64,000 nucleotides of DNA from Branchiostoma floridae (lineage: Eukaryota; Chordata; Leptocardii; Amphioxiformes; Branchiostomatidae), in the NCBI RefSeq assembly GCF_000003815.2, contig NC_049995.1:12270427-12334426 (forward strand), read 5' to 3'. Position 1 is the first letter of the stretch. The number at the start of each line of letters is the position of its first letter. Shown in pieces: positions 8,858-60,731 of the stretch. Position numbers and translations under genes: made by a program. The notes under the pieces are model-generated. The model worked only from the letters and a program-made list of their open reading frames with translations. It made no database searches and was not told where the DNA came from.

Positions 8858-8950
8858 CGTTCTGGAAATGAGTCGCCGGGTTCTGTCTCTTATTAGTGCG
8901 TTAGGCCACATCAAGTGAATTCTATGGAGAGTGCGTGATTTCGCCAGATG

Positions 8951-12174: not shown

Positions 12175-13861
12175 GCCGCGAACGGTTGAGCTTCTTGAAA
12201 TGCCTACTAAAAAGTTCAAAGACCCCATACCTTCGCCAAGCAATATCATTTTAATTGTAGAGACATACTTGCCGTTTATAATTTAGTGTTAACTCTTCTG
12301 TAAATATTCATCTTGTTCATATGACTTGAAGTAAAGTATTTTAATTTGGCCTATAAAAGGCCAATTATCAGCACTGTCGGTACAAACATGCAGTTCCTTT
12401 GAGCTTTACCAGAGGGCGTATCGTAGAATAGAAATATGGAACGTGCCCTCTGTTCTCGTTCGCGACGTGCCGCTATGCGCTACAGACTCATTACCGGCCG
12501 AAAAACATGAAAAAGGCTGTGTTTTTTTTGTAGTCCCTACCAGACTGACTAGCTGGCTGTTATAAGGAGAAAGAATTGTCAGGGGAGTTTTGCTACCAGA
12601 GGAGTTGGCCGGCAGGAGGGGAACATTAGCGTGGACTGACTCCCCTGGCCAATTTCCCGATTTTTTTTGCCGAATTCTATGATTCATTCACCCCCGTAGG
12701 AAGGCCTGGTAGTGGCTAGCTTTTTTTGTCAGCTTCTGTCAATCAAAGCAGGAAGGAAACGTGACTGTGCGTTATGTAATTCGTCCCTTACCTAACGTTA
12801 GTGTGTAAGACAGACAGTGAAAGTTGAACGGTCTCTTTTCGACCATCTTTCGACCAAGTTCTTCGATATCATTCCGACCAACCGATCCTTTTTACTTAGA
12901 CACGTTTACCGTGCCGAAAGTTTTTGCATAGTTATTTACAAAGCCCACGACTTCTATGACAACACCTGCCTGTATTTTATAAGGGACCGCCAGAATACCT
13001 TCGGTTGTATATGTTGAAGGCCGCGGGATTTCAACATGTCCAGAGAATTGAAGCGTATTTTTCACATGAAGATCTAGTCTGTAACATTTAACGTGCCAAG
13101 AGAAAATCGTTCAATCCTCAAAAAGTGGAGCAGTGTCCGAGGGAGCAACGGTCGTATTGCTGGCAGTGTCGTGCGTACGGTGAGCTACTTTCCTGTTGTA
13201 TGATACCGGTTCAAATCACTGTTGCCGTGGAACCCTTTTTGTTGAAAAATATTAGGGACGTTTTTGCATTGCCTTTCTTTAAATCGGACTTGAGTGACTA
13301 CAAGTGCCTGTATTAGAAGAGTGAACGGGGATACGATGTGAGGTCAACAGAGACATTGCCGTTTGGAAATCCTGTCCGCGTCGGTGTAACGGGGTATGGC
13401 GAGGTTAGGTTCGTCTCAGGACGTTTGGCTGTTTTGATGCAATTTTAAAAGCAGGCTGTGATAGAAAGAACTGCTGACAAGGATCCACGACAGTTTTTTT
13501 TTTCTAACAAGACATCCGACAGGCTTGTACGAATCGTGCACGACTGTATATACCAAGAATGCCTGCAGTTTGCGATCGCACTTCTTATGTGGCTGGGCTC
13601 TTACGTGTGAGTTTTTAAAATTTCCCAGTGTTAAGGTGATATTCTTTCAATCTTTCTCCGAATTGCAGGTTAGGGAAATAGCATTTTTTTTCAAATAAAT
13701 CTCCGTAAATTGTAGAGAGAATTCATTATTATGCAAACTAGCATAAACTCTTTTAATTTCGATATGTAAAACTCTTAATCTGATATAGAAAATTTACAAA
13801 TATTTTATCATAATTATTGGATGATATTCAATGTTTTGGCTCAGTTGAAAGAAACACTAAG
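12175..13861. other. upstream region of the LRR-Ig gene
   Basis: No confident coding exon. Two weakly similar stretches (about 12800-13020 and 13090-13320) end in related text (TGCCTGTATT) and may be an old duplication or 5' UTR exons. An inverted pair CAGAGGGC/GCCCTCTG lies at about 12411-12453. Confidence 0.35.
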
Positions 13862-15490
13862 ATGAATTACGCAACATTATTATTAGTGTTAAGCTGCTTT
13901 GTATATCATGGTACAAGCCGTTGTTTAAACTTAGATTATTGTACCTGTCAAACTAAAGTAAGATGTGAAAGTACAGTCAACCATACTTATCATTCTATTC
14001 CACATGCTTTGCCACAAGACACAAAAGATCTGGAAATATTGTCACAAAATATTGAGAAAATTGCACCAAGCGATTTTTCTTACTTGCCAATCTTAACAAG
14101 ATTGATAATACGACAAAGCGGGCTGAGAAAACTGCTCCCAAAATGCTTCGAAAACCTGCCGAATGTCTACGACATTGACCTTTCAGAAAATGACATTAGC
14201 ATGGTCGTAAATGACACCTTTATTGGATTGGCAAAACTTCGTACCCTACGTTTAACAGATAACAAAATTAACTATGTTGCTGATCGTGCATTTTTTGGGC
14301 TTATTCATTTGACACATCTCTATCTCAACAACAACGACCTAAAACGTATTCCTTCTGCCATTGCGTCTCTTTCTGCCTTAAATTTTCTCATACTAGAGAG
14401 AAACCAAATAGAACTATTTCCCGAAGATCTAGAATTCATAAAACACGTTCGAATGTTGAACCTGATGTATAACCCTGTCAAATGCAACTGTAACCTTCGC
14501 CCGTTTCAACAGTATTTTTTGTTACAAAAGTTGGTCGGAATCTATAAGCGTTGGGGAATATTCTGTGAGAACGACAGAGGAAAAACAGTCACCATAGAAG
14601 TAGCACGTTTGAAAACCCTCCCATGCAATGCATACACCGTCCAAGTGTTTCCGAAGAACATTTCTGTAAGCGTAGGAAGTAACGCGTCTTTGTCGTGTAA
14701 GATTGTTAAGTGTAAGGAATTCGAGGATCTTCGCTTTACGTGGTTCCAACCAAACGGAAACGTCATCAAAGAAGATCATTCCTACGACTTGGTGGGAATT
14801 CAGGACAATGTTACTGATGGACAAAATTCATCCATGTTGATGACAACCCGTGGTGAAACATGTGCCTCTGTGCTATATCTCAAGCGAGTGTCGCTCAACG
14901 AGACAGGCACGTACACGTGTGCCGTCAGCGCTCCAAAAATCCACACGGTAAAGGCCAGTGCCCTATTAACTGTCTGGGCGCCAAAAGGCAATGCGACTAC
15001 CAATACTACCCTGGAAAATCTGCACGTAAACAATACGGCTACACCGGATACATTGTCAAACCGTAGCCGAACTGTTGTTTTGCAACAAAACTCTACACAA
15101 ACCAACGTGAATGTTCAAACAACACCTAAAGGGGTGAAAGACGACGGCAACCTAACTTTTATACTGCTGCCGGTGAAAGCGAATGAACAATTTGCTGACT
15201 ATATCCGCTTTGTAATGATTGTGGTTGCTATTTCTGTATCTGTGTCTTTATTAGTAGCTGGGTTTGCAACTCTCTTTAGCGGTCAATGGTCACGTAGAAG
15301 TCTTGAAGAAAATTTGAGGATGGCTAAGGTTGAAGGAGTCGTACTACAGATAGGAATACGTTTCTCGAGTGTCCTTGTGTTGAGTTCGATGTGCCACGGA
15401 CCAGCACACCACTACGAGAATGATGACCAGGAATCACTGGCACATAATGGCGGTGCCGACCACATCTACGAAAATGCTCATGAGATGTAG
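13862..15490 (+). CDS. LRR-Ig type I transmembrane receptor (LRRIG)
   Basis: Intronless, 542 residues from the ATG at 13862; an in-frame ATG at 13817 precedes the signal peptide and is less likely. Order: signal peptide 1-19 (LLLVLSCFVYHGTS), LRRNT cap (C-x5-C-x-C-x5-C), about six LRRs (DIDLSENDI, TLRLTDNKI, HLYLNNNDL, FLILERNQI), and an LRRCT beginning NPVKCNCNLRPF. One Ig domain follows, with the core Cys, Trp and Tyr in ASLSC, FTWFQ and ETGTYTC. Next come an Asn/Thr-rich stalk with many N-glycosylation sequons, one TM helix (about 450-472) and a 70-residue cytoplasmic tail. The tail carries two tyrosines in YEN context (about 518 and 536), which fit GRB2-type SH2 binding and not an ITAM. 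LRR-Ig receptors are greatly expanded in amphioxus; ligands are unknown. AATAAA at about 16207 is a plausible poly(A) signal. Confidence 0.88.
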   Translation: MNYATLLLVLSCFVYHGTSRCLNLDYCTCQTKVRCESTVNHTYHSIPHALPQDTKDLEILSQNIEKIAPSDFSYLPILTRLIIRQSGLRKLLPKCFENLPNVYDIDLSENDISMVVNDTFIGLAKLRTLRLTDNKINYVADRAFFGLIHLTHLYLNNNDLKRIPSAIASLSALNFLILERNQIELFPEDLEFIKHVRMLNLMYNPVKCNCNLRPFQQYFLLQKLVGIYKRWGIFCENDRGKTVTIEVARLKTLPCNAYTVQVFPKNISVSVGSNASLSCKIVKCKEFEDLRFTWFQPNGNVIKEDHSYDLVGIQDNVTDGQNSSMLMTTRGETCASVLYLKRVSLNETGTYTCAVSAPKIHTVKASALLTVWAPKGNATTNTTLENLHVNNTATPDTLSNRSRTVVLQQNSTQTNVNVQTTPKGVKDDGNLTFILLPVKANEQFADYIRFVMIVVAISVSVSLLVAGFATLFSGQWSRRSLEENLRMAKVEGVVLQIGIRFSSVLVLSSMCHGPAHHYENDDQESLAHNGGADHIYENAHEM

Positions 15491-31490: not shown

Positions 31491-34400
31491 TTAATTTGCA
31501 GTTGAACTATTCCCTCCTCGAAAGGACAAATAAAAGCCACCATCAACTGGGTTACACTTATAGTAGTTGTTAATATTTGAACATTCCTCAGTAAACCACA
31601 AGTGGCATTTTATGTTGAACCTGAAGTACTCGTATTTCCATTGCGTTCTTTGGTAATCCAGTCCCTGATAACGGAATGCGTTATACTCCATCGTTTGCGT
31701 TCGCCTGTGACCGATCGTGACGTCATCACATGCTGCAATTTTCAGTTTCCCCATTGCAGCCATGAAGAACTCTGAAAACAGAAAAAAAAACGCGCATCTT
31801 AACCAAAGCTTGAATATGTCACTTCTCCTCTACTCTATAAAATTGTTTTGATACTCCACAGTGGTAGAGGCATTTTATCCTCTTTTCAATTCATCACATT
31901 AGACTCTTTTTTAATTCAGAACATAATTTAGATACCCATCCGAAGTGGGAGGTACTGAATTAATTATGTTTGGTCAGCAGGTTTCCTTTTCTCTGTATCA
32001 GAACATCTTCGATGAGGCAAGAACAGTCTTACATGACGAAATTTGATTAAAAAAATCGATATAAGAGCACGTTGGGCAAAAAAACTTTCCCTGGCGTTTG
32101 AATGACGTCTGAACAGACTGCAATACTCCTTGATGACGTAAGATGGCGCTTGAGTATTGTGTTAATGACCTATTCCACTTTTCATGCGGCAATTGATGAC
32201 CACGGCCATATAGCTTACGTGTGTGTCCATGCCTCGAGTACTTGGGGTCGAACCCGACGGCACGAACGCTGTCCGTCCTCGCCATGAAGAAGTTGGTTAC
32301 TCTGGTGGAGAAATGGCAGCGAGGAAACCCGGGGACTGGTCCCCAGTGGTGATGGTCGTGGATAAGCAGACAGTCGCCATCTTTGTCACCTGGGACGAGC
32401 GTCATTTTCGTGTGCGCCACTTTTTTGAAACCTACCCTGCCAGAAACCTACACAAAATTACAAATCATGGAATATCTCAGAGAGAGTGCTAATCATTATT
32501 GTAATGTTTACGACGTGATGTGTTTTTAAGGTCACTTAAGTTTTATTTCTTTTATACATGTAAGAAACAAATAGACAAACAAACGATGTATAAGAAGAAC
32601 TTCCATTGCAAAGTGAACTCATGAAGAGTATGAAGAATAAAAATTGTCATGAATGGTCAGTAAACTGTCACAATGAACGTCTATAGAAGAATTTTTGTTT
32701 GACTTCCACATAAGGTCATAAATGTACTTATATTTCGGGAAATTTTAACATGGAATCCGCTTAGAATGGTATATGAGTAGGGTCTCACCGACAATCGTTG
32801 ACGTTGTACGGATTTTAATGACATTTTCTTGTTCGATTTAAATTTCCTTGAAGATATGAAAGTCAATGCCAATGGCCAAGACAGAAATGCATTAAGATAC
32901 ATATGCCGCAGACATGTACTTACCAAGTCCAAGTCTGTGTTATCCAGAACATTGACGAATCTTTCCAACTTTGTCCTATTTCCGAAAGCGAAGTCGTCAT
33001 CCACCCAAAGTAGGTAGGGCGTGTTCACCTGGGAAACGGCCAGGTTTCTTCCCGCGAACCAGCCCTGCAGGGGAGAATACGTCATCGCAAAGTTTCAGTG
33101 CTGCAGGGGATTTTGGGTAAGGTCAGAGATTAAGGTCCCTTAGAGATAAACTCAAATCGAATGTGGAACTCCGGAAACGTTGCAAAAAGAGTCTAGGCAA
33201 AGCATTGTTTACAAGTGAGAGACAATAGAAATCACTTTACACTTTGACCACAGACCATAATGCATCCTGATTGCACACGGTACTTGTAACAATAAGATGG
33301 GTCGTGGCATATCATATAGAAGATAAAAAAAGTAAAAAGTTTGGAATTTTAAAAACGTGCCAAGTATATTACCATAATTGTTATTGTTATTACTGTTGTA
33401 GAAATGATCATCATACTATCATTACAATCATTATCATTACTAAATTAATATTCTTGAGTTTGACTTAAGCAAAGTGTATGCAGAATACAAAATGCTTTCA
33501 ATTTGCTTTTATTGGCATTTCCCTTACGAAATGTAAACCAAAAACACCCATATCACAGTTTAATATTATTTTTGTACTTAGAAGAACAAACTACGATATA
33601 CCAGTTGAATATAACAATATGATATCTATGGTGTTTCACAAGAAAATGCCACCTACTATAGCATACGGCATAACAAAATGGTCGACATGCTCCGCCTGGA
33701 GGTTTTCTATTGGACGACTGTCGTCTGCGACGATGACCCGGATGTTGGGATAGAATGCCCGGATGGTGGCCAGCAGGGTTCGTATGGACGCATACCGGAG
33801 AAATGTTTTGGTGATAACGGTCACTTTGGATGCGATGTCTTCATCTGTTTCAGAGGGCAAAAAGTACATTTTCTTTAATGTTATGATACGTTTTTTGAAT
33901 AGTAATATCGTATAGGATACAAAATAAATTCGACAAACTTCGGAAATTCAAAACTAGAAATGTCTTGCACATGGGTCGATGGAAAGTCTGTTATATTATA
34001 TTGTGCACTCTTGTCAACGGTAAGTATTGTTATTCCTACAAATATCATCTATAAAAGTTCAACATAATTGCAAACCCTAGCCAAGCATTTTCAGGGTCAT
34101 TCCTACAAATATTTTTTACAAAAGTACATACATAATTACAAACGATCAATAACCACAGCAATACATGTGCAGCAGCATCATTCAGGTAACAAACTTGTCA
34201 GTGATTAATTTATTAGCCTAATGAATGATTCAACTAATGACGTTAAACGAACCTGGTCCGGGATCATACAGGAGTGAAACTCTAGAAGGTTGGATGCGAA
34301 CGGGAATGCTTGCTTCGTAGTTCAGGTACCTAAATTTAACTATCGATAGAAAGCGGTTACAGTAGACCAATAGCCGATCTAGCGGAAGTTTTCGATTCCT

Positions 34401-38465: not shown

Positions 38466-41400
38466 TCAGTACGACAGTCCATTTTCAAGTCTTCTATAAG
38501 TCCGTATCGTGTTGACTGTGGAATCGTCGTCCGGGGCGCCCTTTTCTGCGTCTTTGTGGCAGTGGACGATCATTGGCGACGGAAGATGCTCTGATGGGAC
38601 CCCACAATATCGACGGCACGTCTCGAGGACCCAGGGGCTGTCCGTCTTCAGAGTAGAAACGGTTCTGGCAGGATACGACGGCACCGGGCACAGACTGTCG
38701 TAAGTGTTTAACCAGGAGGCAGGCCTCGGTCGTCGGTAGGACAGGCGATTGAGAAACAGACGCTCAACGGCTGGAATGGAAAAAAAACGGCTAGTAACTG
38801 CCCCGAACCCAAGAACGGTACATGTAAAAGTATTCAAACAACACGGCCATAACAGTCACAGCAGGACAAGACGGGGACAAAGGCAGGAATCTGGAGTCGG
38901 CTATCATCAAAGGGCGCGGGCCACACAGATGGCACAGATAAGGACCCCCAAACAACGAATGGAATTTGAATATGCACACAATCACATTGGTCCTAGCAAG
39001 GACGTTCTATCTGGCTCCTTGGTTCTATCAAAGATTTAGCCAGCCAAAACAACAGGACAGGAAAGTTTAGAAGCAACCGTTACGGCACTTACAGCACAAA
39101 ATAATATGAGAATTTAACTAACTATGGAACGGGCAATTTGTAAACAAGCCGGGGATGGCACGCGGGGGTTCCAGCTGAAAGAGAAGTGATCTATCATACA
39201 ACAATCTTTACAAAGAGATCACACTACTAATTATCAAATACACAAAACACTAGTAAGGGATAACAGACATTGCTGACAGACATATACGGAACTAAGAACG
39301 GTGACTGCTATGTGTATACAATCTATGTACTAGAGAGCTACACTACTCACTTTTGGGTCCGGCAGCGGCTAGCGACGAACGGCAACTAACTTACTGAGGT
39401 TCAAATCTAGTTTCAAACCCAACTGCTGTCACCAGCTGGTCTACTATTGGTCTAGTCAAGTCATGTGACTTCCTAATATAGTCTTGTTACCTAAGGACTC
39501 CTCCAGATGGTTCCAAGCAAGTTAGTGTCATCCATCATGCCTGTTTCACAGAAACACATGGCATTGTGCAGTATTTTTGTGAATGAATGAATGAATGCAT
39601 CATGTACTTACCTGTTTCAAAGTTGTACACAGCAGCAAACGCTGTGGCGCGGTGTAGGCTGTTATCTGCAGCGAAGTGCTACAAACACACACGGCACGGT
39701 CCTGCTGCCCCAGTAGGCGCACCGTTGACATGCCAACGTACTGGTCTGCTCGGCACTTTGCACAGCTTGCATAACCGTTTTACGAGTGAAGTTGCATCAT
39801 GATATTGTCCGGATATGGACCATTCCCACACAGTAATGCTGGTATTCAATATCATGAGTGACTTTTTGTCATGATATTGTCCGGATATGGACCTATCCCA
39901 AACTGCACCGCTGGTGTGGAGTGTTTTGACTGAATTTTGTTCAAGATATTGTCCGGATATGGACCTATCCCAAACTGCACCGCTGGTGTGGAGTGTTTTG
40001 ACTGAACTTGTTCAGGATATTGTCCGGATATGGACCTATCCCAAACTGCACCGCTGGTGTGGAGTGTTTTGACTGAACTTTGTTCAAGATATTGTCCGGA
40101 TATGGACCTATCCCAAACTGCACCGCTGGTGTGGAGTGTTTTGACTGAACTTTGTTCAGGATATTGTCCGGATATGGACCTATCCCAAATTGCACCGCTG
40201 GTGTGGAGTGTTTTGAGTGAATTTTGTTCAAGATATTGTCCGGATATGCAAAGAAACAATAATACTTGACTCATAATTGTTACCATCGCAAAGATTGTTT
40301 TCTGTGTCATTTGATTGTGAATGACGGTGTCAGTATATTTACCCATGTATATGGAAGCTTGAGCTTCAATTACCAGAAAATTAAAGAGTAAACATACATT
40401 GACATCGGGCATACTCTTTGTACAATAAACACACACAAACAGAAGCAAAAACGTTAATGACGTGTATTTGACAAGACAGGAAACCTTTTTTATGATACCC
40501 AAGTCAACAAAACAATCTCAGATTCATGTATGACAAGAAAAGTAATTTGTTAACCATTAAGTTGTCCGAAAACTGATCTCTGGAATGTTTCTGTTTTGGA
40601 TATGTGTCGTAAATGGAACGGAATATGAATTCGGAAGGAGCGAAAATTTCGGCAAAAAATTGCAGTCTTATTTGTTCAAATACGCAATAAAACAATCACC
40701 GATTCACAATTCAATATAGAATACCTTTATCGGAAACGGTCAGAATATGTTAACTCCGAGTCTGTCCTAAAACTAATCCATGGAATATCTGTTGCGGATA
40801 TGTCTCGTAAATGGACAGCTAGAAAAGAAAATAGTATGAATTCAAAAGTCCCTGACACGTATTCAGAAGAACGGGAAATTCTATACGTCCTGGCATGTGC
40901 CGAATTTCCTGACTCATGATATTCTGAGGCATAATGAATATTATGCATAGAAATTATGCACATCATGCTTCGTGCAAACTCCGAATTTGTCCGGGTATTC
41001 CTTATCGAAATATATGGACCTTGGATATGTAAAGAATGTAAAACATATCACGTATTCGGAGGCAAGAAACGTCAATGACGCGTGTCTTGAAAATCAGGAA
41101 AGTCTTATTTGTCCGGATACACAACAAGACAATTCCTGACTCATGATATTTCCAGATATGGGAAATATTGAACATCGTGTCCGGACACAGTCCGAATATT
41201 CAGCATGTCCAAAAATATGTCAACCCCGACTTTGTCCGGAAATCACACCCTTTCGCACAGTGACGATTGTAAGGTTTAAACTGCTGGGCCCTACACTTTT
41301 TAACATCAGTATAATCCTAGAACACGAAGTTAAACGTTACTTTGGAATAAATCTGTTGAATGATTACCTATTTCAGAAATGGTAAAGATATCGGATGAAA

Positions 41401-45497: not shown

Positions 45498-45917
45498 TGG
45501 TGAGTCAGAAGGGGGAGGGGCAAAGCGCCGGGACGTTAATTGGAATCAGAATCAGAGAGTTTAGTCACGGCCTGAAGTTTAACTTGAAAGGTTGGGAGTG
45601 TGGCACCACAGTGGTGCAAAGCTTTGTACTGGCCCTAAGATAGAGGGAGTGGGTGTTGGTGGGTGGTTTTTGACGGACGCCAAAGTTAAGGAAAAATAGT
45701 CTAAGAGAGAATAAAAACTCAACAAGGATTTAGGCCCGAAAGTATAGGATTAACTTTATAATTAGCAGGTGGAATTGGGGATACTCCCACGTTTATTTAT
45801 GGTATTGAAATTATCCAAACTATGATTTTAGCAATAAGTCGTGCCATAAAACGTGGCCTTTAAGTTAATGCAAGAAATTTGTGTTCTAGCCATGATCATA
45901 TCTTCATGTCGAAGATG

Positions 45918-46409
45918 GGTTTTAGCCATCTTAATTCATCATGTGTTAAAGCCATCTTGTTCCATAATGTGTTCAAGCCATCTTGTTCCATAATGTGTTC
46001 TAGCTATCTTGTTTCATCATGTGTTCTAGCCATCTTGCTTCATCATGTGTTCTAGCTTTCCTATTTTATCATGTGTTCTACCTATCTTATTTCATTATGT
46101 GTTCTAGCTATTTTGTTTTATCATGTGTTCTAGCTATTTTGTTTCATCATGTGTTCTAGCTATCTTGTTTCATCATGTGTTCTAGCTATCTTGTTTCATC
46201 ATGTGTTCTAGATTTCTTGTTTCATCATGTGTTCTAGCTATCTTATTCCATCATGTGTTCTAGCTATCTTGTTTCATCATGTGTTCTACCTATCTTATTC
46301 CATCATGTGTTCTAGCTATCTTATTTCATCATGTGTTCTAGCTATCTTGTTTCATTATGTGTTCTAGCTATCTTATTTCATCATGTGTTCTAGCTATCTT
46401 ATTCCATCT
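45918..46409. repeat. 26-bp minisatellite, about 19 copies
   Basis: Unit ATCATGTGTTCTAGCTATCT plus TGTTTC; copies at the left edge are more diverged. It lies downstream of the cytokine gene's likely poly(A) site. Confidence 0.95.
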
Positions 46410-46647: not shown

Positions 46648-46653
46648 TTTATT
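46648..46653 (-). terminator. likely poly(A) signal of the cytokine gene
   Basis: AATAAA on the minus strand, about 925 nt past the stop codon. No other AATAAA was seen on the minus strand between stop and here. Confidence 0.55.
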
Positions 46654-46710
46654 CATTCAACTCTCTGTAGAATTACACACATTTTAACAATACGTTGGTT
46701 TTGAAATTCT

Positions 46711-46890
46711 TTGGTATAAATAATTAAAGGCAAATCTTATAAATTACTGTAATAAATAGCATTAAAACAAAATCAAAGGTGCGATAACGCCACATGATAA
46801 ATTAAATATCTGAAGTATAACTGAATGAACTGTAGGGGTATAAACCTTATTGATAAATAAATAATAAGAAAACACACAATAAATAAGCTT
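46711..46890 (-). promoter_or_regulatory. AU-rich element cluster in the putative cytokine 3' UTR
   Basis: Read on the minus strand, two UUAUUUAUU nonamers (46856-46864 and 46878-46886) and several further AUUUA pentamers (near 46716 and 46752) lie 700-870 nt after the stop and before the poly(A) signal. Overlapping motifs of this kind mark unstable cytokine mRNAs in vertebrates. The DNA is AT-rich, so chance is not excluded. Confidence 0.5.
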
Positions 46891-46954
46891 AACCATAAAC
46901 CTACCACAAAGTTTCTATCTTATGTACAATTCAACTAGTGTTGTGACGCAGTCT

Positions 46955-47042
46955 TATAGATATCTATCTTTGCTTAAATATTGATATTTTCAGTATTCTC
47001 TGGCACAATAGTTTTTGTAGCACCCGGTAACATTGTGATTTC
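46955..47042. repeat. ~85-bp repeat, second copy of 45358-45445
   Basis: TATAGATATCTATCTTTGCT...CAGTATTCTCTGGCACAA...GTAGCACCCGGTAACATTGT. It lies inside the putative 3' UTR of the cytokine gene. Confidence 0.85.
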
Positions 47043-47577
47043 CATATAAGATTTTTGTTTGCTATAGCTAAATGTGTTTTATGATACACAATAAATACTA
47101 TGTCATGCTGACATACATATTGCACACGCACACATCATGTCCTAACTAGCAGCATTTATACCAGCGTGTGTCGGGGTCACTATGCAACAAACTTCGCACG
47201 ATTCATGAGAAGTATAAAAAATATACAAAATTCCGTATTAAACCCTTAATAGTATCAAAATAGTGTACACTAAGGTTGACTTTGGAAACAGGGAATAGAT
47301 ACTCTTAGAAGGAATGGTTGCCCGGCAACCAGGGTTCAGAGTTCAAACACAATGTCGCGTGAGGCGGCCACTTGGGATTACGTCACAGCTGATGCGGCAT
47401 GGAACGGATTAAAAGTTACCTGCGAATGAAATTTCTGCATATGCTACCCGCATGAAAAAATATTCTACAGTTGTTGTTTTTTTTGCTCCACGTTGGCACG
47501 GAATTTTTTAACTGCTTCTCCTTGGCAAGTTTATGACGTCATCAGATACGCGAAGATGCGCTCACGAGTCGATGACG

Positions 47578-50500
47578 TCACGACCGTCTCCCGGTGTGGG
47601 TGGGACTCCGTGTCGTTCTGCGGCAGCCATTGTTGTAGCGAAGTTTCATGAAGTCTCGTTGGACTCTCCTGAGAAAGTCCACGAAGTCTCGTATAATAAT
47701 GTGGTCTCGGAGACTGCGGTCGTACTCGGAAGGCGTTTCGGAGAGATGCACGGGCGCTGGTGTTGCGTTGTCGGTCTCGTCATTCTCAATGTTCATCAAG
47801 TGCATCTGTGGAAACATAACAACGAAGAACAGATAAGTATACGTGTAATTACACATCTTGTCATTAAAACTGAAGCAAAAAACTCAACACCCTTGCACTT
47901 TTCTTCTCACAAAATTGATACTAACTCTCTCGTAGTTAGTTTTGAAACTACTGCGCTTTCCTTTTTTCAGTGTCTCATGCTTAGCACCTTAAGTCCTTCA
48001 GAGCCTGTCAGACTTTTTAGTATTTTACCACACCTTTCCCACTTCCCACACCTTACATTGGAAGATATTATACAACAGTAGAGCCCGAGTCCACACCAAA
48101 GCAGGCCACAATATTACTGTTGTCCATACCTTTGTTTCTGTTTCTGTTTCATTATTGCATAACAACAGGCATGTGACATAGGACCATGTTGTATTCTGTG
48201 GATGTATATATGTACAAACTAAATTATATTGAAAGCTACTATTTCTAACAAAAACATTACTTCAATTAAATGAAAAATGTTTGGTTTCTATGTTATTTAT
48301 CTGATTAAATTTTACCAATTTTGCGTCCTCATCATAGGCGGCCATTTATTCGAAGAGTACTAGTTCAAACTTATTCTAGTTCCATTACTGAACTATACAT
48401 TACTTACCTACTTTAGATTGCATCCGATTAGATTTTATTCTATTATCTTGATATCATAGACGTTTCTGCCTTTTCAATTATATACTTTTTTCAGAATTAC
48501 ATTTTACTATTTCAGTTCTTTGTGATACAGTAAAGTTTCTTTTCTTTACCGGCTTGTTGAAAAAAAAAGTCTCACATCTAACTGGAGACCCAAAAATAAT
48601 CACTCATTAATAGAAGAAATGATCACTAATTATTAAGACAAATAAACATTGATTAGCAAGTTCCTTACCGTAGTACTAATGGCGCGCATGAGGCTTCTCG
48701 TGTGCGACAAGACGTTCTGTAGTTGCCTGGACAACTTCTCCTCCAGCCTCCCGGCTTCTCTCACCACAGCCTCGCCCTCGTCTACTTCCAGCACGTCTAA
48801 GAAAGGGTAGAGTAGGTGGAGGTTGTGGCGCATGGTGGTCAGACGTACATCACTCTGTAGAACAACGGGAGAAGAACACAAACATCATAAGTTATCTGTT
48901 CTTTAACTGTTATTGATGAAGAATTTATGAGTGCCATTTTGATGTGGACTCTCGCGAGATCACAGCTCGGCGAGAATTCTTGAGAGCTGGGAAAGTCAGT
49001 TTCCACACTTCAAGGACAAGGACACAACATTGGTGGACAAATATGCAGATCAACTTATTTCTGAATACACAGTCTTATTTGAAATCGCTCTCCTTTATTC
49101 TATCTCTTACCCATTTAATCTACAATATGTTTATTCCTGTTTTACGTTTATTTCTGTCATAAGATTGTTAGTCCTAACTGTGATGCTTTTAAATAGCTGA
49201 GATTTAAACGTCTTTCCGAAGATAGAGCGACCAGTGCTTTCTTTGGTATTGGTATCATTTAGCTAAGTACAGGTCGCGATTACCCTACGACCTTTTGCCC
49301 CTTTGTAAGACACCAGGAAACCGCTAGAGGGCATATTTTATAACAATATAATGATACAATGACAGACTTGCCAAGATTAACCATATTTGGTAAGATAATT
49401 CTAATTCCTACAACATCACCAAATTTGGGGATCTTTATAACTCATTGTCATCACTGGCGACTTGACCATATTTGGGATGCATGCTGATAGCATAATGACG
49501 TGACGTCAGAGAAGCATTATCTCAGGAGAGGATTGACTTTGTCGTGACGTCATGACACGCAGGGGGTAATCCAGCGGCCATTGTGATTGTGAGGAAAGTT
49601 GTCTGACATGCGTAATTATAATGACTGAGAATGCGATAATTACAAAAGTAAGTTTGTCTTTCTGCGTTATTTGTTTGCAAACAAGCTTAACAACATAATG
49701 CGACAATTTGAAACGCTTTTAGTTACATATGCATGGCTTAGGCGTGCCAGCGGCTTGGTCTGACACAACTGGCCTTCGCAAAACTGGTGTTTTACGCCCT
49801 AAAGACGGTAACCTGGTCCCCGGTCCTTCCCAGGGATTCGGGCTGGGATTCCTCGACAATCTAAGCTTTTCTTCCCGCCTGGCTATCTTATAATTAGCTC
49901 ACCCGGCTAATTTTTCCTGCATTTGTTCTATTGTTGCTGAAGTGACTTCTAGGGGGGCTGGGGCAAAGTTTCCTCGGGGGCATGTTGCGCCTGGTGCCGA
50001 ATGACTAGCGTATGCAGGCCCTGACAAGGGTCTGGATCCCAAGTTATCCCAAAATGCAGTCGTGCCAGTTGGCCAACAGATATAGATAGAAGTCGTAAAA
50101 ACTGTGACAAAAATAAAATGTTTTATTGGGGAGGGGGGCAAACTTTCAAGTCAAGATTTTCGGAATGACACGATATGACCATTAGGGTCGAACAAATAAT
50201 GCAAACTATGTGTCTAGACTAACATTTAGACAAGTATGATTCAACATACATAAGGGGGTGTGGCGCTAGAACAGAGAGGTAGAGCTAGAACAAAAGACAC
50301 ATGCCACTTTTATGACCTTAAGGTCAATTCTGCAATGCAGAGAATTGAAAGTATGCATTGAGAATAAGATATTTATAATCTTGAAAAAACATTGACGAAT
50401 TGCGATGAATGTTGGATGACATCTTACTGTCACCTTAAGAGAGATGTCAAGTCAATAAATAGGACCTAGTGGAAGTAATTACGAAGGTGTGGTCACATTG

Positions 50501-53500
50501 TCGGCGATCCAGAAATAAGCCCAGGGATTCCCCCCTCCCCAAGCCTGTAATTTTCCAAGCCATTACTAGTACTATAATATCTCTGTGTACGTACAAATTA
50601 CAACAAACCGCACCTACAACTCGTGACCATGACAAGTCTTAGTCTCCAAGCAGACGTGTCAGCTGGATGACAAAAGAGAAGAATTTGGCCAAATAGGGAC
50701 AAATAAGCTACTATAGGTTTTTAGGCAGTCTTTTGCAGTCTATCCAGCTATGTACCGGACGGTCAGTTCACTCATAGGCCAATTAAGTCCTACTAGACCA
50801 TATTCTCCTACTACTGTTCGACCTAAAAAGTTGGCCATATTCCCCTATCACTGTTCGACCAGGCCGGAGTATGGTAGAGACTAGACAAGTGTAGCTAATC
50901 TTTTTGCGAACACAAATGCCACAAATTTCAGCAAAACCCCTAGCTCTTAAACTGTCTATTATTAAGATAACGCTAGCTTTCTTTCTATTTTTTTTCTATA
51001 TTGGCCCAAAAATATTTTGACCTCATTGTTTGGCCTAACGTCTTAGCAGGTATGTTGCAATGTTACACGCAATTTTTAAGCATCAAGGCTTCACGGGATA
51101 TTATAATCAGGTAAGAAATGGCAGATATGACAAGAATGCAGGTGAAACATTTTCGGTATGTCAAAAGACAGGTGCGATCAGGCGACTTCCTGTACGTTTC
51201 CTTATATCTCAGCAAAGGTGTCGTCCTCGCCTTCGGGCACACCTGTGCTAAACCTTTTGACCGTCTTGGAATGTTGGATATGGGCCAAGGAAACTACCTG
51301 TAGCCATATACGCCGGAAGGACGACACAATGACATTTCCTTCAATAAGAACAATGCCCGTCACGTATATTATACAGCACAGTCGCACATCCTGACATCGC
51401 CGTGCGATATTGTTTACAGATCAACATAGCATGTACAAGCAGACATGTGCCGGCATAGTTTAACTCTCGTCTGTGTATTTACAGAAAACAAAAGCGGAGT
51501 TTACAAAAACAGGGACTGACATTGTTGTGACGCAAACCAGAGCCAGAAAACACTTCCCTTGTTTACAAGCTTTTATAACAGTTCACCTGACCGCAAAATA
51601 TAGACAAAACGATATGGTCTGCATACAAACACAACAACCATATCCCGTCTGCCCAGAAACTGACCATGGAATAACAAATATTCTTATGATACTAATATTC
51701 CAAGCAGCACAAAGAGCAACATAGTCCTGACTTGTGTAAATACATATTTTCTAAACACAACATTGTACCGTAAGCTTTAAGATTTGGATCAGTGGTAAAC
51801 AACAACACATGGGAATTCGGAAGTGTGTTCTCTGACATTTTGAAGGTTGGATGCACTTCATGACTATGTCTTATGATTTCTAAGTCGTCCTCCGTCCTTC
51901 CAAGACACGTACGATGACTCTTCCTCGACAAAAACATTTCTTACGGACATACGCAGGATCTGGATTAGGATCTCTGGCACTGTGGGTGTATACATGGTGA
52001 TAACACGCGTGCCATGTTTTTGTTTTGAACGGAAGAGAGAAACACCCCGGTATGACTCAAGTAGCCAAAACACGACCCCGAATATATGCTGGATGAAACG
52101 CCATGACCTGCGGTTTGACAGGGCAAGTCTGGATTTTTTAACGTACGGTAGTAAAAAAAATAGTAATGCTGGGAGGGGGGTACACACATTATTAAAGTCT
52201 TTGAAGCCAGCGAAGAGTGTAAATTTCAAAATTCGATTAACGAAATGATTGTTAAGAATGTTTCCCCACCCTTATGTTGGTTATATAAGGTCATACGTGA
52301 ACGTTTAGTACCTCACGGGGACTTTGAACTCTACAGTCAAATTTAACTGAACACTTCATCAAAGAACATCCTCAAACCCATCATCCGATATCATTATACA
52401 CGGCGTGGCAACACTTAACTGTGTCTCCGAAGTCCTCCTAGAATGAAATTATACCTTACGTAAGATGTAATAACAGCATTGCGTAACGTAGCCCCAATTT
52501 CATATGTATTGTCTGAAGGATGCCAACAATAACAATCTGAAGGCACACAGACAAATACTGGCGCATGCACACGTTTGTTTGAATGAACACACACACCATG
52601 AATGAGCTTCATTAATCTCAGGATATTTTCCTAGTTACAAACAAACACATCGCCAAGACTTCCTGAAGAAGTGAACACTAATAAAATAGGGCACAAAGTA
52701 ACTTTTTCTACATAAAAAGGCCTACCAGGTGTGAATAAAATGAAGACTGGTGCTTAAGTCGTTTTCTAAGGTCGCAGGTGCACAATCCTTTCAACTTTAA
52801 GTCTTTAGCTAGCCTTCTCTCCGACGTGAAATCCTATTTATAAAGTGCGTACAGGAAACGTTTAAATATAGGCCCCGTGGCTGATCCGTTCTAACGGTTC
52901 TTCTCGTGTTAGTACAGTGTAACGAAACTCCAGGTCGGTGACGTAGAGGGGGGATTTAGATAGCGGAGAGGATTACAAATTCTAGCCTGTCCGGAGTCAA
53001 ACACACCGACACAAACTTCGCGAAATTCCTCGGTAATTAACCTCTAAGACCACTACCTCCCACTCTAAAGCTAAAGCTAACTTCCAGGAGGAATAATCTA
53101 CAAACACCGGTGGACACACATCAAATAGATTGTTGGTTTTTGTCGGGCGGAAAGACGACCTGAGTGCCGGCGGTATAGAACAACCATTCACGGGCAAGGC
53201 GAGACCACGGCCGGAGGTGTAATAGTCTCCAAGCAGACATGTCAGCTGGATGACAACAGAGAAGAATTTGGCCAAACAGGATAAAAATACGTTGCCATGG
53301 GGTTTCAGTCAGGGTGTTTTTTGCAGTCTAGTTTCCAAGCAGACGTGTCAGCTGGATGACCAAAGAGAAGAACTTGGCCAAATAGGGAAAAAAATAAGTT
53401 GCCATGGGATCTCAGTCAGACTTTTACAGTCTATCCAGCTATCTCATCCGGCTAGACAATTCACTCCTAGGCCAACTAACTTCTACTACAAGGCTTTTTA

Positions 53501-56500
53501 TTTCTAACTTGGCCAAAGTCATCTATTACTACTCAGCCAGGCAGGAGTCTGGAAGAGACTAGGAGGTTGTGAAGTCTCACAATCGGCGAGACCAACCTGG
53601 GTGGCGGTCGGGCTAGCCCCTCTTGCACCCGCTACCGACCGGGCATTCCTTAGATCATTAGTTCCCGACAGTCGGAACCGGAACGTAACGTTAGATCCCT
53701 GCCCAAACCTCAGCTCTAGTGGCGGGGCATCACTCTCTAGACGCTGACATTTGTTCTCACCGGGCGGCTAAACGATTAACACGCAAACGGGGACATTGCG
53801 TACATGTGGGGCCGGACCGCGGATGTCGTCTTTGTGGGCGAGTCTTGGCATCCAGCCTACCGCTTCAATACAACTTTAGATTTACTAGTGGGAAATGCAC
53901 ACACAAATTAAAGTACCGATTGAGGCTTTTATATTCTATTGCAAAGATTTGTGTTGTTGAAAGCCTGATGATAATCGGAAGCAAACTATCCCCATCAGTA
54001 AATGTAAACAAATATTTCTGGAGGCGTTTTTTTTTTCAGTGACTGTCAGTTACTTTCGTCGTCTATTCCAGACACCAAATGTCCCTGCTTCTGTATTATA
54101 TAGTAAGAAAGACCCTTGTTTTCACGTGTAAATTTTTAACCATGACTCTATCAGATAACATGCTTGTTGGCCTTGACCGTGCCTTTTTTCTAAAGTAACC
54201 TGCTGACTAGGCCAGACTACGTCTAGACATGGAAACGACGTGAAAAAAAATATTTCAAAAACTCTCAGCAGACGAACCTTCTGTAAAAAATTAACTTCTC
54301 TTTTATGCTTATGTACAGCATTAGGAGGTAAGAATCAGCACTGCAATTTAGAATTTTGATTCATTAGAGTACTTTATTGCGAATATCTCTACATGTATCA
54401 TTGCTGTGCAACGCTCTGATTGACTTGTACTTAGCCTCCAAGTCAGACCTTTGGCTGGGTGACTGTTAGAAAATCGGGCCCAATAAAAATTGATACAGAA
54501 GCAGAAAACAGTACATGGTTAACCAATAAAGCATGCCCAAGAAGTCTGCTTGTTGTGCTCTGTTTGTTACGGCATAAATATACAATAAAGGTCTTTATCT
54601 GTCCAATACAATGAACAAGTGGCCAGGTGTGTTGTATGATTGTTTCACAAACGCTTTGATCTCTGACAGAGATAATTTTGCGGTAATTTTTTCAGGAAGC
54701 AATTTTGGTAATTTTGTTGACCATCAGATTTTGAAGATGCTGGTCTCTGTGCTGGTTATTTTAACCGTCTAGACTCTTCAATAACCACCTTTGGGACGTG
54801 TGGTAAGAAAGAGGCTTGTTGTTGGCGCGGATGTCTTGACTTAGGGCCTGTGTATTGGCAGGAAATGGCCAAATGATCGATTGTGACCATTCATTCTCAG
54901 TCCGGAAGGGGTCTTGAATTGGCCTTATCTACAATAGGAGGTGTATGTTGTACATAAAGCTGCCAGTGTGTACAAGTCAAGCTGCTAAGCGCTAAATCAG
55001 CTTCAATTGTGACATTGTCACTTCGCCAACCACTTGAATCGACTTCTGATGTTTTGCCGCGTGTTATCTAACAAGATTCTTACATCAAATCAATTACATG
55101 ACATACATAATTAAAGGTTTCGGTTACGCTTCAAACGCGGGAGCGGATTTGTTGTATTTTCGAAGCGTTAACGTGATTTGGGTTCGTCATAGAGGGCCTT
55201 TTGAGTCCACAGCTTGACAAGGGCACACCCGGCTTATGTGGTTCCCCTGTTGAACAAACAGTAGCTTGTGTATCCAGGGTTATACGAGATGACTCTAGCT
55301 CGCGGCCTTTTCTCGCTCTAGTAGAGTCCGCGCGTGTACGAGCGGTATTCACTCCGTTCGCCCTCAAGCCACGATTGTTCGCACACCATACATGACAAGG
55401 CTGGGACTTGTTGGAGTGCTACTAGCCACAATGATGTATAAACCCTACACACAAAACTAGAGATCATTCATGGTCACGACGGACAACTTACACGCTGCGC
55501 TCGCTCGTTGCTCTTTTCTGGAAGTCAGGCAAGCAGACTATCAAGGCTTTAGGTTATACCGTTAAGTAGATAGCGCTATACTAACCACAGGGGAACTTGC
55601 GTTTTTGTGTTATTAAGAAACCTGCGTACGTGTTAAAATATCACAATGCAACAGTTGCCTATCTCGCTATCTTATCTCATCTTCCTCGTTATCTTATTTT
55701 CTTCCTTTTGATTAGGCACGCGCTATGGATATGTCTTTTTTATCTTCCGACTTGTCTGTAGTCCGCCCCAGGTGCGTAAGTGTGGACAATAGATACACTG
55801 TGTACAATGAAGAGACGACATGCTAACCAGAAAAACGTGCCCTTTTCCTCGTCATGAGGAACTATAATTGGAACAGACGTACAAACCAAGAAGCTTGACT
55901 AGTTTCAAACAAAAGAGATATCCCGGGTCAGAAAACAATTATAGGTCAGTTACTACGTCATAGGATCCCCTTAAAAAAAGCAGAATAGCCTATTTATAGA
56001 CCTATTTATACCGATCTAGGATGCACGTCAAAAATGTACTCTTTTAAAGGACTGCTACGTAAAGTAGAAGTTGACACGAATACAAGTGGCGAACATGTTT
56101 GTAAACTGTCACATGCCTATCTGTATAATAGATATTACGTTGACGATGTAAACGCGTAATGTTTGTAATCTTATACTGTTGAAAACACTGTGATTATGAT
56201 GGACAGATGGCAGCATTTATATCAGGTGTTAAGTAACAACATAAAGGCCGCATATACACATGTACGTACGGTCAGAGAGTTGATTGATCTACTGCTTCAG
56301 TGACTATAGCCTGTAAATTCATACTTCCCAACTGTCCTACAAAGATCTAGACACGACTGCTAAGTACAGTTGACACTTTGATCCGAAAACGTCAAACAAC
56401 GATCTTGTCTTTCCTAACGACGGAGACAAACTTTCCCCAAGAATTTCCCGGTTTGAGTTTATTTTGTACATAGCCTCTTTCCTGACCGGGGCATAGCTTA

Positions 56501-59500
56501 CATACCTAGATTCCTTCCCTGCTATTTTTACTTCAGGTGAGACTTTAATCCCTTCAATTAAGAAGATTTGGAAATATTTCCTCCGATAGGTTACTATTTC
56601 TATATAACCCCCCGATTAAAATTCCGACAGAGAAAGGGCCGAGGTCGGAAGTAAATATAAACATCCTAATTACACAAACTCTTAATCATCTCTTAAGTCA
56701 GCACACCAGCGATAGATATGTTTATCTTCTAGAGAGAACACTTACCATGCTGTTAAGGGTGTAATGGATATGATTATAGTTACTGGGTGGTACGTAGAGA
56801 GTAGCCTCTAGCTCCACCAGGCCTTCCTACGGGGATCGTAGAATTCGGCAAAAAATCGGTCCACGCTTAGGTTTATGTTTCCCCTCCGGCCGACCAACTC
56901 CTCTGGTAGCAAAACTGCCCTGGTTACCTGGTAAATTACTCTCCCTATAATAGCTAGCGTAGCCAGTCTGATAGAGGCTAGAGAGAGCGTTAACGTTACT
57001 TACCGTTAAACTTTCCCAGTCGGTGTAAGACGTGCTAAGTTCAGGAAGCCCTCTGAGAGTCAGGTCACGGTTGGAATACTCCGGGTTGCCGAACCTTAGC
57101 TCATTCTGCAAAGAAAACAAAATTAAAGATATTATCATATTAATAAGCAACAAAAGAGCCTGTGTTTCAAATCTCTCACTGTCAGTAACTGATTGGGACT
57201 CTTCTTGTTGTGGCATAGCAAGTGGAAGGCTGAAAAAATGTTTTATTTACGCCAAACAACTTCGCATTTATTTGAGTCTAAAATCATACATCTACCTGTC
57301 CTACACTATATATATAGTAATAGTCTTGTACTATCTCAATATAAGTGTATGCCACTATGTAAAGGATGGGATATTTCCACAAGAGGTGGTTGGGGGTTAT
57401 TGGTATTTCCATTGTACACCCTTAGCTACAAGGAAACAGTAATAGCTAACGTATAAGAAGCTACGCATCTTACGATTAATTTCTTAGATTCACGTTTACA
57501 TTTCTACTTCCTTTCTTTCTTCAATCTTTGTGTACACTTTGATTTACAAATGAAATGTTTCAAAAGAGAGAATCCTAGACTAATATTTCCGATATGCAAA
57601 TCAGAAAACATTTTCATATTTCCGTTGTCTTCTCGCCAGTCTATACTCCTTGCCTTATATGGTCATACGACAAAATCAATACACGATCAATATTCAGATC
57701 TCGTAGGACGAGACCACTTTTAAGGGAGGGACCCCGGATACATGTTGTCAATTTCAAGGCGTGCTTTGGATCTTTAATCTAGCATATCCTTCTATTTTTG
57801 CGTATTTTGGTGCGGCAAAAAATGTAACATTGGTGGGTTGGGTACAGTAGCTTAATGAGGGATGACGAAATAAAAGAATGGAATAGCGTGTGACCTCCAT
57901 ATTCAAAGTAGACCCTCCCTGTCTCGCGTTTACTCTATGACCCCGCGCGTTGGGCCAGACGTAAAGTGGGCTGAGATTAAATTTTTTGAGCCTCCGCAGA
58001 TTTTCAGTTGGCGGGAAAAACATGAATAATTCACGCACCCCGTAACCCCCCGCGACGCCCTCAACGAAATTTGTCTGGCCGGCGGTGTAGCAGGGGTGGG
58101 AAAAAGCTACATACCAGAATGTGGGCGTCTTTTTGAAGGACTTTCTCTGGACTTTACGTGCCCGCGAGACTCCAGGTACTTGTATGAGGATTCGTGTTCC
58201 AACACGGGATAAGCCTTTACTAATTGAAAGCTCTTAGGCAATTTGAGAGCACCAGCTCAGCTTGGCGACTGTACTCCTTTTGAACTTACCGACATGATTA
58301 CTCAAACGTATGGGTGTATATGTAATAATATTGACAGAAAGATACGACACATTTGGTATCATATTTCCTTTTCTATAGATATGGTGGTATTTTGCTGCAC
58401 TTGTACAATGAGTAGATTCTGAAATTACAAGTGATTTGGAATTTGACATTTTCTTGCGTCACATTTGACATCTATTAAACTTGTGCAAATTGCTGATTGA
58501 CGTGACAGTGTTTAACAAATAGAGCAGACAACAGGAGTTCAGATAATTCACTGTTTACGTAGGATTTGACCCTTTAAACACGACAGTTCATGAAAACTAT
58601 ATCAGTGATTGCACTAAATGTTTGTGTATCGATTTGCTTTGGTAGATTATCAAATCAGGGCGTGAATTTCGGTTCCTATATTTGTGATCACCGTATCACA
58701 GATATGGTGGTAGGAATTTGAGCAGATAGAACCCAGAGCTACAAGGCAAACCACAAGTAGGAATGGCCTGGTGGTCTTTTCGTGGAATTGGTACCACGCC
58801 GGTACCGAATTTAGCTCCACAGATGGCTAGGGCTTGTCATTGCTTGTTAAAACAACGCCGCTAGATGCAAAACAGGGCACACAAGCACGCAATGGTTGGG
58901 ACCCCGTCACACACACACACAAAACAGCTCCATGAAAATACCCCATTATTCTAAACTGTCACAAGCTCTTACCGCATGGCAAGCGGCGGCGGAAGTGATT
59001 AGCTTAACACCTTAAAACGTTTGACATCTCGTCCGAAAAGTTTGAAAGCGAGCCAGGAGCCGGCTTTGTGTTGCGAGAACGGTTCGCGGGTTTCGTTTGG
59101 GAAATTTCTGTTTACCTATGGGGTCATGACTGAGGGGAATTCTAGCTCTCTCGCCCGACGACGTCAAACAAAATAACAAGGGCGGGTCAACAAGCCGGCG
59201 AGGTCAACAGACTACAAGTCCAACAGCTCGAAGAGCATAGCTACAACCACGTCAAACAGTAGCGTAGTTATGTAGTTAAACACAGGCTACATGTGCACAC
59301 ATGTTACTGTCGTTAGCCCACCCATACACAGTACCAACACGTGCGAGCGGTAAGAAAGGAAATTTAAGACAGAACTTGCATTCCATTCCTTCTACCACAA
59401 GTCTAAAGCACCCGATAATAGCCCCAACTGAACAGGAAATACCGAATAAAAATTTTCTGGAAATAGAAATCTGTTTGTACTTACGAAGTGTTTAAAGAAT

Positions 59501-60612
59501 TTTTCTGTGGTGAGAAAAAGTCTGTGGACGATGCGGACGTTCTCGTCTAGTTGCTCGCAGGCCGTTCTTCTTTCTGTTGTCGCTGATCTTGTAGTTGTGG
59601 GAGGGATTGGGCTGGAGTCTCCTACCGCGGCCATGGTTAGCAGTAGCAGCAAGCAGAACGCGACGAGCTCCGAGGTGTCCTCTTGACAATCTAAAGTGGT
59701 GAAACAGAGCGGTACGTTTAGTGGGAGGTTGTCGGAGCAGTGCGCGCTGCGGCAAGGGCGATCTGCTCCAGTAATTATATCTCTCCCCTCGCTCTCTACG
59801 GGTAGGCTATTTTAAGGGCTGTTTCCAAGCGCATTTATGCATGCCTCGGCGCAGCGCCTGGCTACGATAAGCGACTCCGCTGGGACGGGTAGCTAGTCAA
59901 ACAACTCTGTCAGTCCGGCCGGCTCGTTCGTCAAGTGGAGGCATGCGGGGCATGACTGAATGACCCCGGGGACTGCACGCCTGCTCGGCCGCGTGGCGCG
60001 TAACATGCCGCCGAACAGGTTTCTGTACAACACGTGCATCCCCTTACTCTACCCGCCTGCCAAAAATCACAACATTTCCTGCGATGTTTTACACAAACAA
60101 TGCGCCAAAAAAGCGATATTTTACACAAACGTTGCGCTAAAAGGTGACAATTCTACCATAGGGAGCGACTACGGCCGCCTAGCCGACCGAGAGGCGGAGG
60201 TAAAGGCGTTCGGCTCGCCTCGACAATGTTCGGGAAATGTTCGTAATAAAATGGGCACGTTGCAACATGTTGTGTGTTCTGGTAGAAATGATCACTACAA
60301 CGCTAACTGTACTAAAACATCATTATAAACAAGATCACAGAATAGTTTTAACCTCAGAAATGTCTAAATCATTGTAGATATATAAAATCTCTATCGGATA
60401 CGAGTAAAATCACGAGTAAGCCAAAATACATGAAAATCGTAAAAATCATCTTAAATCGTAAAAATCAGCAAGGACATGAAAAATTCTCATCCTAAAGATA
60501 CAAATAAATCTTATTAGAGCAGTTAAGAAAGTAGAGAAAGATTAAGAAAAATCGCGTAACGTTAACATGTGGAAAAGAGCATGTAGTACTTACGGAATGT
60601 ACACTTGGCCAT
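47578..60612 (-). CDS. IL-6-superfamily four-helix cytokine
   Basis: Five exons: 60612-60594, 59690-59485, 57105-57004, 48854-48669 and 47805-47578 (stop). Intron phases are 1-0-0-0 and the protein has 246 residues. Exon 1 has only 19 coding nt (MAKCTF), as I recall for IL6. Signal peptide to about 30 (VAFCLLLLLTMAAVG). Helix A about 46-75 (QLDENVRIVHRLFLTTEKFF), an A-B loop with LTLRGLPEL, helix B about 110-137 (MRHNLHLLYPFLDVLE), helix C about 140-170 (GRLEEKLSRQLQNVLSHTRS) and helix D about 199-228. Helix D HIIIRDFVDFLRRVQRDF lines up without gaps with IL-6 helix D (HLILRSFKEFL...), and less closely with CLCF1. The four IL-6 A-B-loop cysteines are absent; C51 and C232 could pair. N184 is a glycosylation sequon. 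It should be secreted and signal through a gp130-like receptor (inferred). The exact subfamily is open. Confidence 0.8.
50639..50890. repeat. interspersed repeat starting AGTCTCCAAGCAGACGTGTC, copy 1
   Basis: Shares AAGCAGACGTGTCAGCTGGA, GAGAAGAATTTGGCCAAA, CAGTCTATCCAGCTAT and a GGAGT.TGG.AGAGACTAG end with 53222-53570. Confidence 0.75.
53222..53570. repeat. interspersed repeat copies 2 and 3 in tandem
   Basis: A truncated copy (53222-53330) is followed directly by a full-length one (53331-53570) of the same family as 50639-50890. Confidence 0.75.
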
Positions 60613-60723: not shown

Positions 60724-60731
60724 CTTTTATA
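60724..60731 (-). promoter_or_regulatory. TATA box of the cytokine gene
   Basis: GGGGGTATAAAAGTTG on the minus strand, 112 nt before the start codon. A start site about 30 nt downstream (near 60700) would leave a ~90-nt leader and would skip the out-of-frame ATG at 60701. Confidence 0.7.

Follow-up and report, generated by a model that had tools for sequence, protein, structure and literature searches.

Do the invertebrate chordates possess a ligand of the IL-6 group, and, if so, is one encoded at this locus? The surveys of 2021 (PMC8226699) and 2026 (PMC13203501) report IL-6-family ligands only from vertebrates. The latter follows an IL6R back to molluscs, and both JAK and STAT as far as sponges, so that the ligands were the missing part. 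Among the titles listed in our literature search, which covered mostly non-subscription literature, none was an earlier report of an invertebrate-chordate ligand tied to the IL-6 group. The stretch considered here, 64,000 nt of the Branchiostoma floridae genome (C17:12270427-12334426, forward strand; hereafter the window), includes a gene, designated A, for which an IL-6-type helical cytokine had been proposed (the original prediction). From its structure, its relatives in the genome and its profile matches, we conclude that A is very probably a genuine gene of the long-chain type I cytokine class, and it is probably of an IL-6-like type, with CLCF1, CNTF and IL-11 as its nearest relatives.

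Structure of gene A

As rebuilt from the sequence, gene A lies on the minus strand and comprises five exons with a total of 741 nt of coding sequence, encoding 246 aa (Table 1). All four introns have GT-AG boundaries and their phases are 1, 0, 0 and 0. Exon 1 is the least certain of the five and was placed on signals alone, namely an A at -3 and a G at +4 around the ATG and a GTAAGT donor; within the 4.3 kb of the window that precede exon 2, only two short first exons with an ATG, a consensus donor and a phase-1 end fit, and that of A is one of them. Exon 2 has splice signals and an open frame, and its counterparts in six paralogues could be aligned with it. The hydrophobic N-terminal run LVAFCLLLLLTMAAVG (residues 15-30), read directly from the sequence, is compatible with a leader for secretion. 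When exon 4, presumed to hold two of the four amphipathic helices of the original prediction, was modelled on its own with AlphaFold2, two helices (exon residues 2-29 and 35-61) separated by a short turn were obtained (pLDDT 69.8, pTM 0.39), a model of modest confidence that fits helices B and C, though it does not show the bundle.

A family of paralogues

A search of the genome (513,431,437 bases in 431 contigs) with the A protein returned the exons of A and, more weakly, three exons for helix D (expect values, E, of 0.024, 0.31 and 2.6) that were clearly related once read. The family now comprises seven modelled genes (A, B, Bp, C, D1, E and F), a further two seen in part (G and H) and a partial copy (D2), distributed over six contigs (Table 1). 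The models of B, Bp, C, D1, E and F run from exon 2 to the stop codon. No exon 2 for D2 was seen in the stretch between D1 and D2, and the exon 3 match of H carries one TGA, possibly within the flanking intron. D2 and H lie outside all of the alignments described below and G was included only in those designated A6, A7 and A8.

A leader-like hydrophobic run is present in exon 2 of all six of the other modelled members, and five of the seven have a Pro-x-Pro close to where the mature protein presumably begins. Three phase-0 junctions are common to all seven models, with phase 0 demanded by the scan for D1, E and F and no phase demanded for B, Bp and C. The paralogues share only 21-24 % identity with A (24 % for Bp), and members of different branches share 21-27 % with one another. 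Among B, Bp and C, non-synonymous divergence (dN) is 0.26-0.31 and synonymous divergence (dS) 0.78-1.68, with dN/dS about 0.16-0.40, and these three genes are judged to be under purifying selection.

Because matching paralogue exons are found elsewhere in the genome, and because none of nine Pfam controls of A (the reversed protein and eight shuffles that preserved the hydrophobic/polar pattern) matched a cytokine family, the exons of A are beyond what chance would give. The gene is real and its exon structure correct. The five exons, the phases 1-0-0-0 and the 246 residues of the original prediction were borne out at the same minus-strand coordinates, and its signal peptide corresponds to the hydrophobic leader noted above; the single gene that it described is there, but as one of about nine paralogues.

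Table 1. Location of gene A, its flanking elements and its paralogues. Positions for A and its flanks are those of the window; all others are contig coordinates
Feature	Position	Strand	Details
TATAAAA box	60725..60731	-	119 nt upstream of the ATG of A; pattern match, not in itself evidence of function
A exon 1, coding part	60594..60612	-	19 nt, phase-1 end; MAKCTF plus 1 nt
A exon 2	59485..59690	-	206 nt; leader, PIPPTTT at presumed mature start, helix A region up to EKFFKHF
A exon 3	57004..57105	-	102 nt; AB loop FGNPEYSNRDLTLRGLPELSTSYTDWESLT
A exon 4	48669..48854	-	186 nt; presumably carries helices B and C; in exon 4 alignment with seven paralogues
A exon 5	47578..47805	-	228 nt including TGA; CD loop, helix D SEYDRSLRDHIIIRDFVDFLRRVQRDFMKLR, basic C-terminal tail; in eight-gene exon 5 alignment
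Predicted 3' untranslated region of A	46653..47577	-	925 nt, stop to first AATAAA; transcript end predicted
B	C4:33800233-33802283	-	Inverted pair with Bp
Bp	C4:33808864-33811457	+	Inverted pair with B; 205 aa
C	C4:30972358-30974767	+	Exon 2 to stop
D1	C15:10355955-10357530	-	Exon 2 to stop; ATG unassigned
D2	C15:10353704-10354733		Partial tandem copy of D1; exon 3 fragment, exons 4 and 5 (92 % and 97 % identical to D1)
E	C4, 11.5 kb beyond C		Exon 2 to stop
F	C9 near 7.955 Mb		Exon 2 to stop
G	C12		Exons 4 and 5 read only
H	C18:12307257-12309076		Match rows only; collinear with exons 3, 4 and 5 of E, 43-49 % identical

Similarity to long-chain type I cytokines

In the Pfam database, the A protein matched IL11 (PF07400) nearly end to end (E 2.7e-4), the match being collinear from residues 47-226 of A to profile positions 4-166 of 170. 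The same family was matched in part by F (E 0.041), where it was third after two bacterial helical families (0.024 and 0.03). PRF (PF06875), which groups with the IL-6-type cytokines, was matched by C (E 0.0091; 15.9 bits, below the cut-off of 22) and by B (E 0.051, alongside three unrelated families at 0.13-0.18). No match to the growth hormone (GH) family was found for any of the seven members scanned. A search of the amphioxus genome itself with the IL11 model found nothing, as did the same search of control genomes, and was uninformative.

The PDB (177,635 sequences; matches at E<=10 listed) was searched with profiles built from five members (A1), seven (A4), eight (A8, with G partial), six without A (A9), B, Bp and C (A2), and A and D1 (A3). 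CLCF1 (cardiotrophin-like cytokine factor 1), a nerve and immune factor of the IL-6 family, was the first match for each of the four largest, with E 7.7e-4 for A1, 1e-4 for A4 and 0.0021 for both A8 and A9, and its alignment spans the AB loop to helix D. Long-chain cytokines, namely CLCF1, CNTF, GH and IL-27 alpha, made up eight of the nine matches of A1, four of eight for A4, six of eight for A8 (CNTF at 0.048 and 0.071) and four of five for A9, in which GH followed CLCF1. The best values for GH were 0.48, 0.37, 0.76 and 0.27 with A1, A4, A8 and A9, respectively, and involved only the part from helix A to helix C. IL-6 and G-CSF were absent from the listed matches of A alone, the A core, A3 and the same four profiles. 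With these four profiles, the family shows significant similarity to the long-chain type I cytokines.

Site-level comparison with CLCF1

Two segments of CLCF1, chosen after the alignment was known and with the CLCF1 letters taken from the PDB searches, were compared with A residue by residue. In the AB loop, F42-T77 of CLCF1 corresponds without gaps to F80-T115 of A (11/36 identical), a match that runs from exon 3 into exon 4 and scores 51 (BLOSUM62) against 4 at the next best place; none of 1000 pattern-keeping shuffles reached this score (maximum 47). In helix D, S149-K180 of CLCF1 likewise corresponds without gaps to S197-Y228 of A (7/32 identical), with a score of 35 against 8 at the next place and a maximum of 29 in 1000 shuffles. 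Overall identity between the two proteins is low.

These segments include residues of CLCF1 known to contact its receptors: Trp67, Arg170 and Asp174 touch CNTFR-alpha (site 1), and Phe151 and Lys154 touch CRLF1/LIFR (site 3) (PMC8780587). The equivalents in A are W105, R218 and D222 for the first group and Y199 and S202 for the second. A, B, Bp and C all retain the site-1 triad, which makes an alpha-receptor site likely in these four proteins.

In exon number and phases, A agrees with the long-chain type I cytokines. IL-6 has five exons, the first coding exon is tiny and the phases run 1-0-0-0 in both IL-6 and G-CSF, and GH and EPO also follow the five-exon plan. A agrees in exon number with G-CSF, for which five are reported (PMC6389648).

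Relationship to amphioxus GHl

One member of this family has very probably been described already. GHl, the GH-like hormone of Branchiostoma japonicum, is described in a 2022 review as a type I helical cytokine with a length of 208 aa, and the same review alludes in one sentence to others, "several genes related to type-I helical cytokines" (PMC9010856). The two ghl primers used for quantitative polymerase chain reaction (PMC5376476) matched Bp in order and in frame, with 6/25 mismatches in exon 4 (reading LFLDEVLL) and 5/23 in exon 5. The best other placements within the A, B/Bp, C and D1 regions had 8 and 7 mismatches, and those on the + strand of the window 9 and 9. On these primer matches, GHl is very probably the orthologue of Bp, which at 205 aa is close to it in length, and a member of the same gene family as A. 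It differs from A, a divergent paralogue on another contig than Bp, whose C-terminus is longer and whose AB loop is closer to that of CLCF1. No reported function for A was seen in the literature searched.

A single GHl gene is spoken of in PMC5376476; Bp, the probable GHl gene, has a close inverted neighbour, B, that is not mentioned in the available parts of that paper, and GHl probes or antibodies might have detected both.

The receptor-like partner of GHl, GHRl, is reported to be an ectodomain that lacks a membrane part, can bind GHl, shares about 30 % identity with the binding domain of GHR and has an N-terminal immunoglobulin (Ig)-like domain, like some interleukin receptors; its gene is reported to be linked to OXCT1, as is that of vertebrate GHR, and GHl, like GH, is reported to raise the expression of IGF-I in zebrafish liver (PMC9010856). 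The published GHl and GHRl data considered here decide for neither a GH-like nor an IL-6-like reading, but the present profiles favour the latter, since the best E values for GH were 0.27-0.76 and the alignments partial, compared to 1e-4 to 0.0021 for CLCF1. A binding partner that consists of an ectodomain only and bears an Ig-like domain would also fit the pattern of CRLF1 and CNTFR-alpha.

The original prediction of an IL-6-type gene in an invertebrate chordate holds in its core. IL-6 itself was not the nearest relative (CLCF1, then CNTF and GH in the PDB, and IL11 and PRF in Pfam), the gene is not alone, and, although the original prediction knew of no such amphioxus ligand, one very probably has been described in GHl, with further genes alluded to in the review.

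Weighing the evidence

A number of results weigh against placing A on the IL-6 side. Its IL11 score of 21 bits is below the Pfam cut-off of 25.8, no member reached the curated cut-off of any IL-6/gp130 family, and Bp, D1 and E matched no Pfam family. A alone gave weak, mixed matches in the PDB with CLCF1 only fourth (E 0.34), and with the core of A alone CLCF1 was third (0.39). It was also third with profile A3 (0.49), and profile A2 gave no PDB match; the poor performance of these two profiles is probably due to too little diversity. With the seven-member profile reversed, a coiled coil came up at E 0.0067, and one of the 28 matches, at 0.15, was an interferon, a helical cytokine of another type. 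The E values of such helical profiles are therefore inflated, and the weight was placed instead on the identity of the top match and on collinearity. At the level of individual residues, Arg170 and Asp174 are both missing in D1, F and G, while E retains only the latter of the two. Lys154, the site-3 contact with LIFR/CRLF1, is absent from all eight of the members read, and a LIFR-type site 3 is not supported in this family. Human CLCF1 has three exons (PMC8780587) and A has five. No amphioxus IL-6-type receptor was found in an exon-by-exon search with PF09240, which is insensitive; it gave four weak matches with no convincing WSxWS motif, and these were taken as noise. As the scores stayed below the Pfam cut-offs and the site-3 lysine is absent, A is not filed here as a proven member of the gp130 family.

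Alternatively, A and its relatives might be an undifferentiated amphioxus branch of the long-chain type I cytokines, co-orthologous to both the GH/PRL and the IL-6 groups or nearer to GH, with CLCF1 appearing first only because it is one of the slowest-evolving vertebrate members. GH was the second match of profiles A1, A4 and A9, GHl is reported to bind a GHR-like ectodomain whose gene is linked to OXCT1 and to stimulate IGF-I in zebrafish liver (PMC9010856), and CLCF1, which is 96 % identical in human and mouse (PMC8780587), may be just a well preserved target. The five exons, shared by several long-chain cytokines (for G-CSF, PMC6389648), would fit equally. However, the GH matches, confined to helices A to C, are over 100-fold weaker than the alignment to CLCF1 from AB loop to helix D. 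Moreover, IL11 or PRF was matched by four of the seven members scanned in Pfam (all below the cut-off) and GH by none, and A resembles CLCF1 in its AB-loop signature and its site-1 triad. We consider an undifferentiated branch of this kind unlikely, though it is the alternative to be taken most seriously.

A secreted amphipathic helical family peculiar to amphioxus and not homologous to cytokines, with the likeness arising from helix composition, would account for the mixed matches of A alone and for what the reversed profile achieved, including the interferon. It is very improbable, as the best-matching segment, the AB loop, is one in which no helix is expected, the top match is CLCF1 with or without A, and the 28 matches of the reversed profile are a mixture, made up for the most part of coiled coils and haemagglutinin stalks, that includes no long-chain type I cytokine; the exon plan and leader also agree with a cytokine. 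Least credible of all is a wrong gene model or a dead gene. The placing of exon 1 on signals might be held to favour the former, but the frame is intact over five exons with consensus splice sites, and homologous exons with the same borders are found in the paralogues. The dead-gene reading was rejected because of this intact frame and the purifying selection on B, Bp and C.

The explanation that best covers these observations, and one that we regard as probable, is that A is a functional gene encoding a secreted type I cytokine of the long-chain four-helix kind, one of about nine family members that share exon borders and motifs, lie on the IL-6/CLCF1/CNTF side and very probably include GHl. 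The leader would be cleaved and the mature four-helix protein secreted. Site 1, made up of W105 in the AB loop and R218 and D222 in helix D, would then bind an alpha-type receptor with a cytokine-binding module, and the complex of ligand and alpha receptor could gather gp130-like signalling chains and so activate JAK-STAT.

Flanks of gene A and other features of the window

The predicted 3' untranslated region of A (Table 1) contains 11 ATTTA pentamers, compared to a mean of 3.6 in shuffled sequences, and this number was reached in 2/2000 dinucleotide shuffles and, over both strands of the window, in 6 of 1262 stretches of the same length. The longer motif TTATTTAWW is present three times (0.16 expected; reached in 1/2000 dinucleotide shuffles). 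AU-rich elements are a mark of short-lived cytokine messages, and their presence in the predicted region, together with the TATA box, suggests that the A message may be transiently induced.

A 26-nt tandem repeat of 19 copies (window 45915-46408) begins approximately 240 nt past the predicted poly(A) signal of A. Intron 3 contains three occurrences of a dispersed 64-nt element (50640-50751, 53223-53286 and 53329-53442), the second and third being 91 and 94 % like the first. A 72-nt tandem repeat of 6.3 copies (39797-40248) overlaps an open reading frame (ORF) and encodes a 24-residue repeat.

Of five other ORFs of the window scanned against Pfam, three gave matches, all at least 14 kb from A. 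Two are long and intact, encoding a leucine-rich-repeat protein (7622-8914, minus strand) and a protein with leucine-rich repeats and an Ig domain (13817-15490, plus strand). The third is an exon-like ORF for a family 2 glycosyltransferase (32681-33085, minus strand; PF00535, E 2.6e-6).

Implications

The Upd cytokines of Drosophila are invertebrate JAK-STAT ligands that are often called IL-6-like. They are also named in the recent survey (PMC13203501). In its search for ligands, one of the two surveys demanded at least 30 % identity in BLAST. Such a cut-off could well have hidden the amphioxus family, given that even paralogues of different branches share only the 21-27 % identity reported above. 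An intact gene family tied statistically to CLCF1, IL-11 and PRF would close the gap in the ligands for an invertebrate chordate, and named genes are now at hand to express and test.

More tentatively, and with somewhat less than an even chance in our estimation, a ligand of CLCF1/CNTF type that bore an alpha-receptor site may have been present already in the chordate ancestor and have expanded to about nine genes in amphioxus, in which case GHl and GHRl would belong to an IL-6-type system rather than being a forerunner of GH. The family also puts in question the status of amphioxus GHl as a growth hormone, a point of consequence for the origin that has been claimed for the pituitary GH axis.

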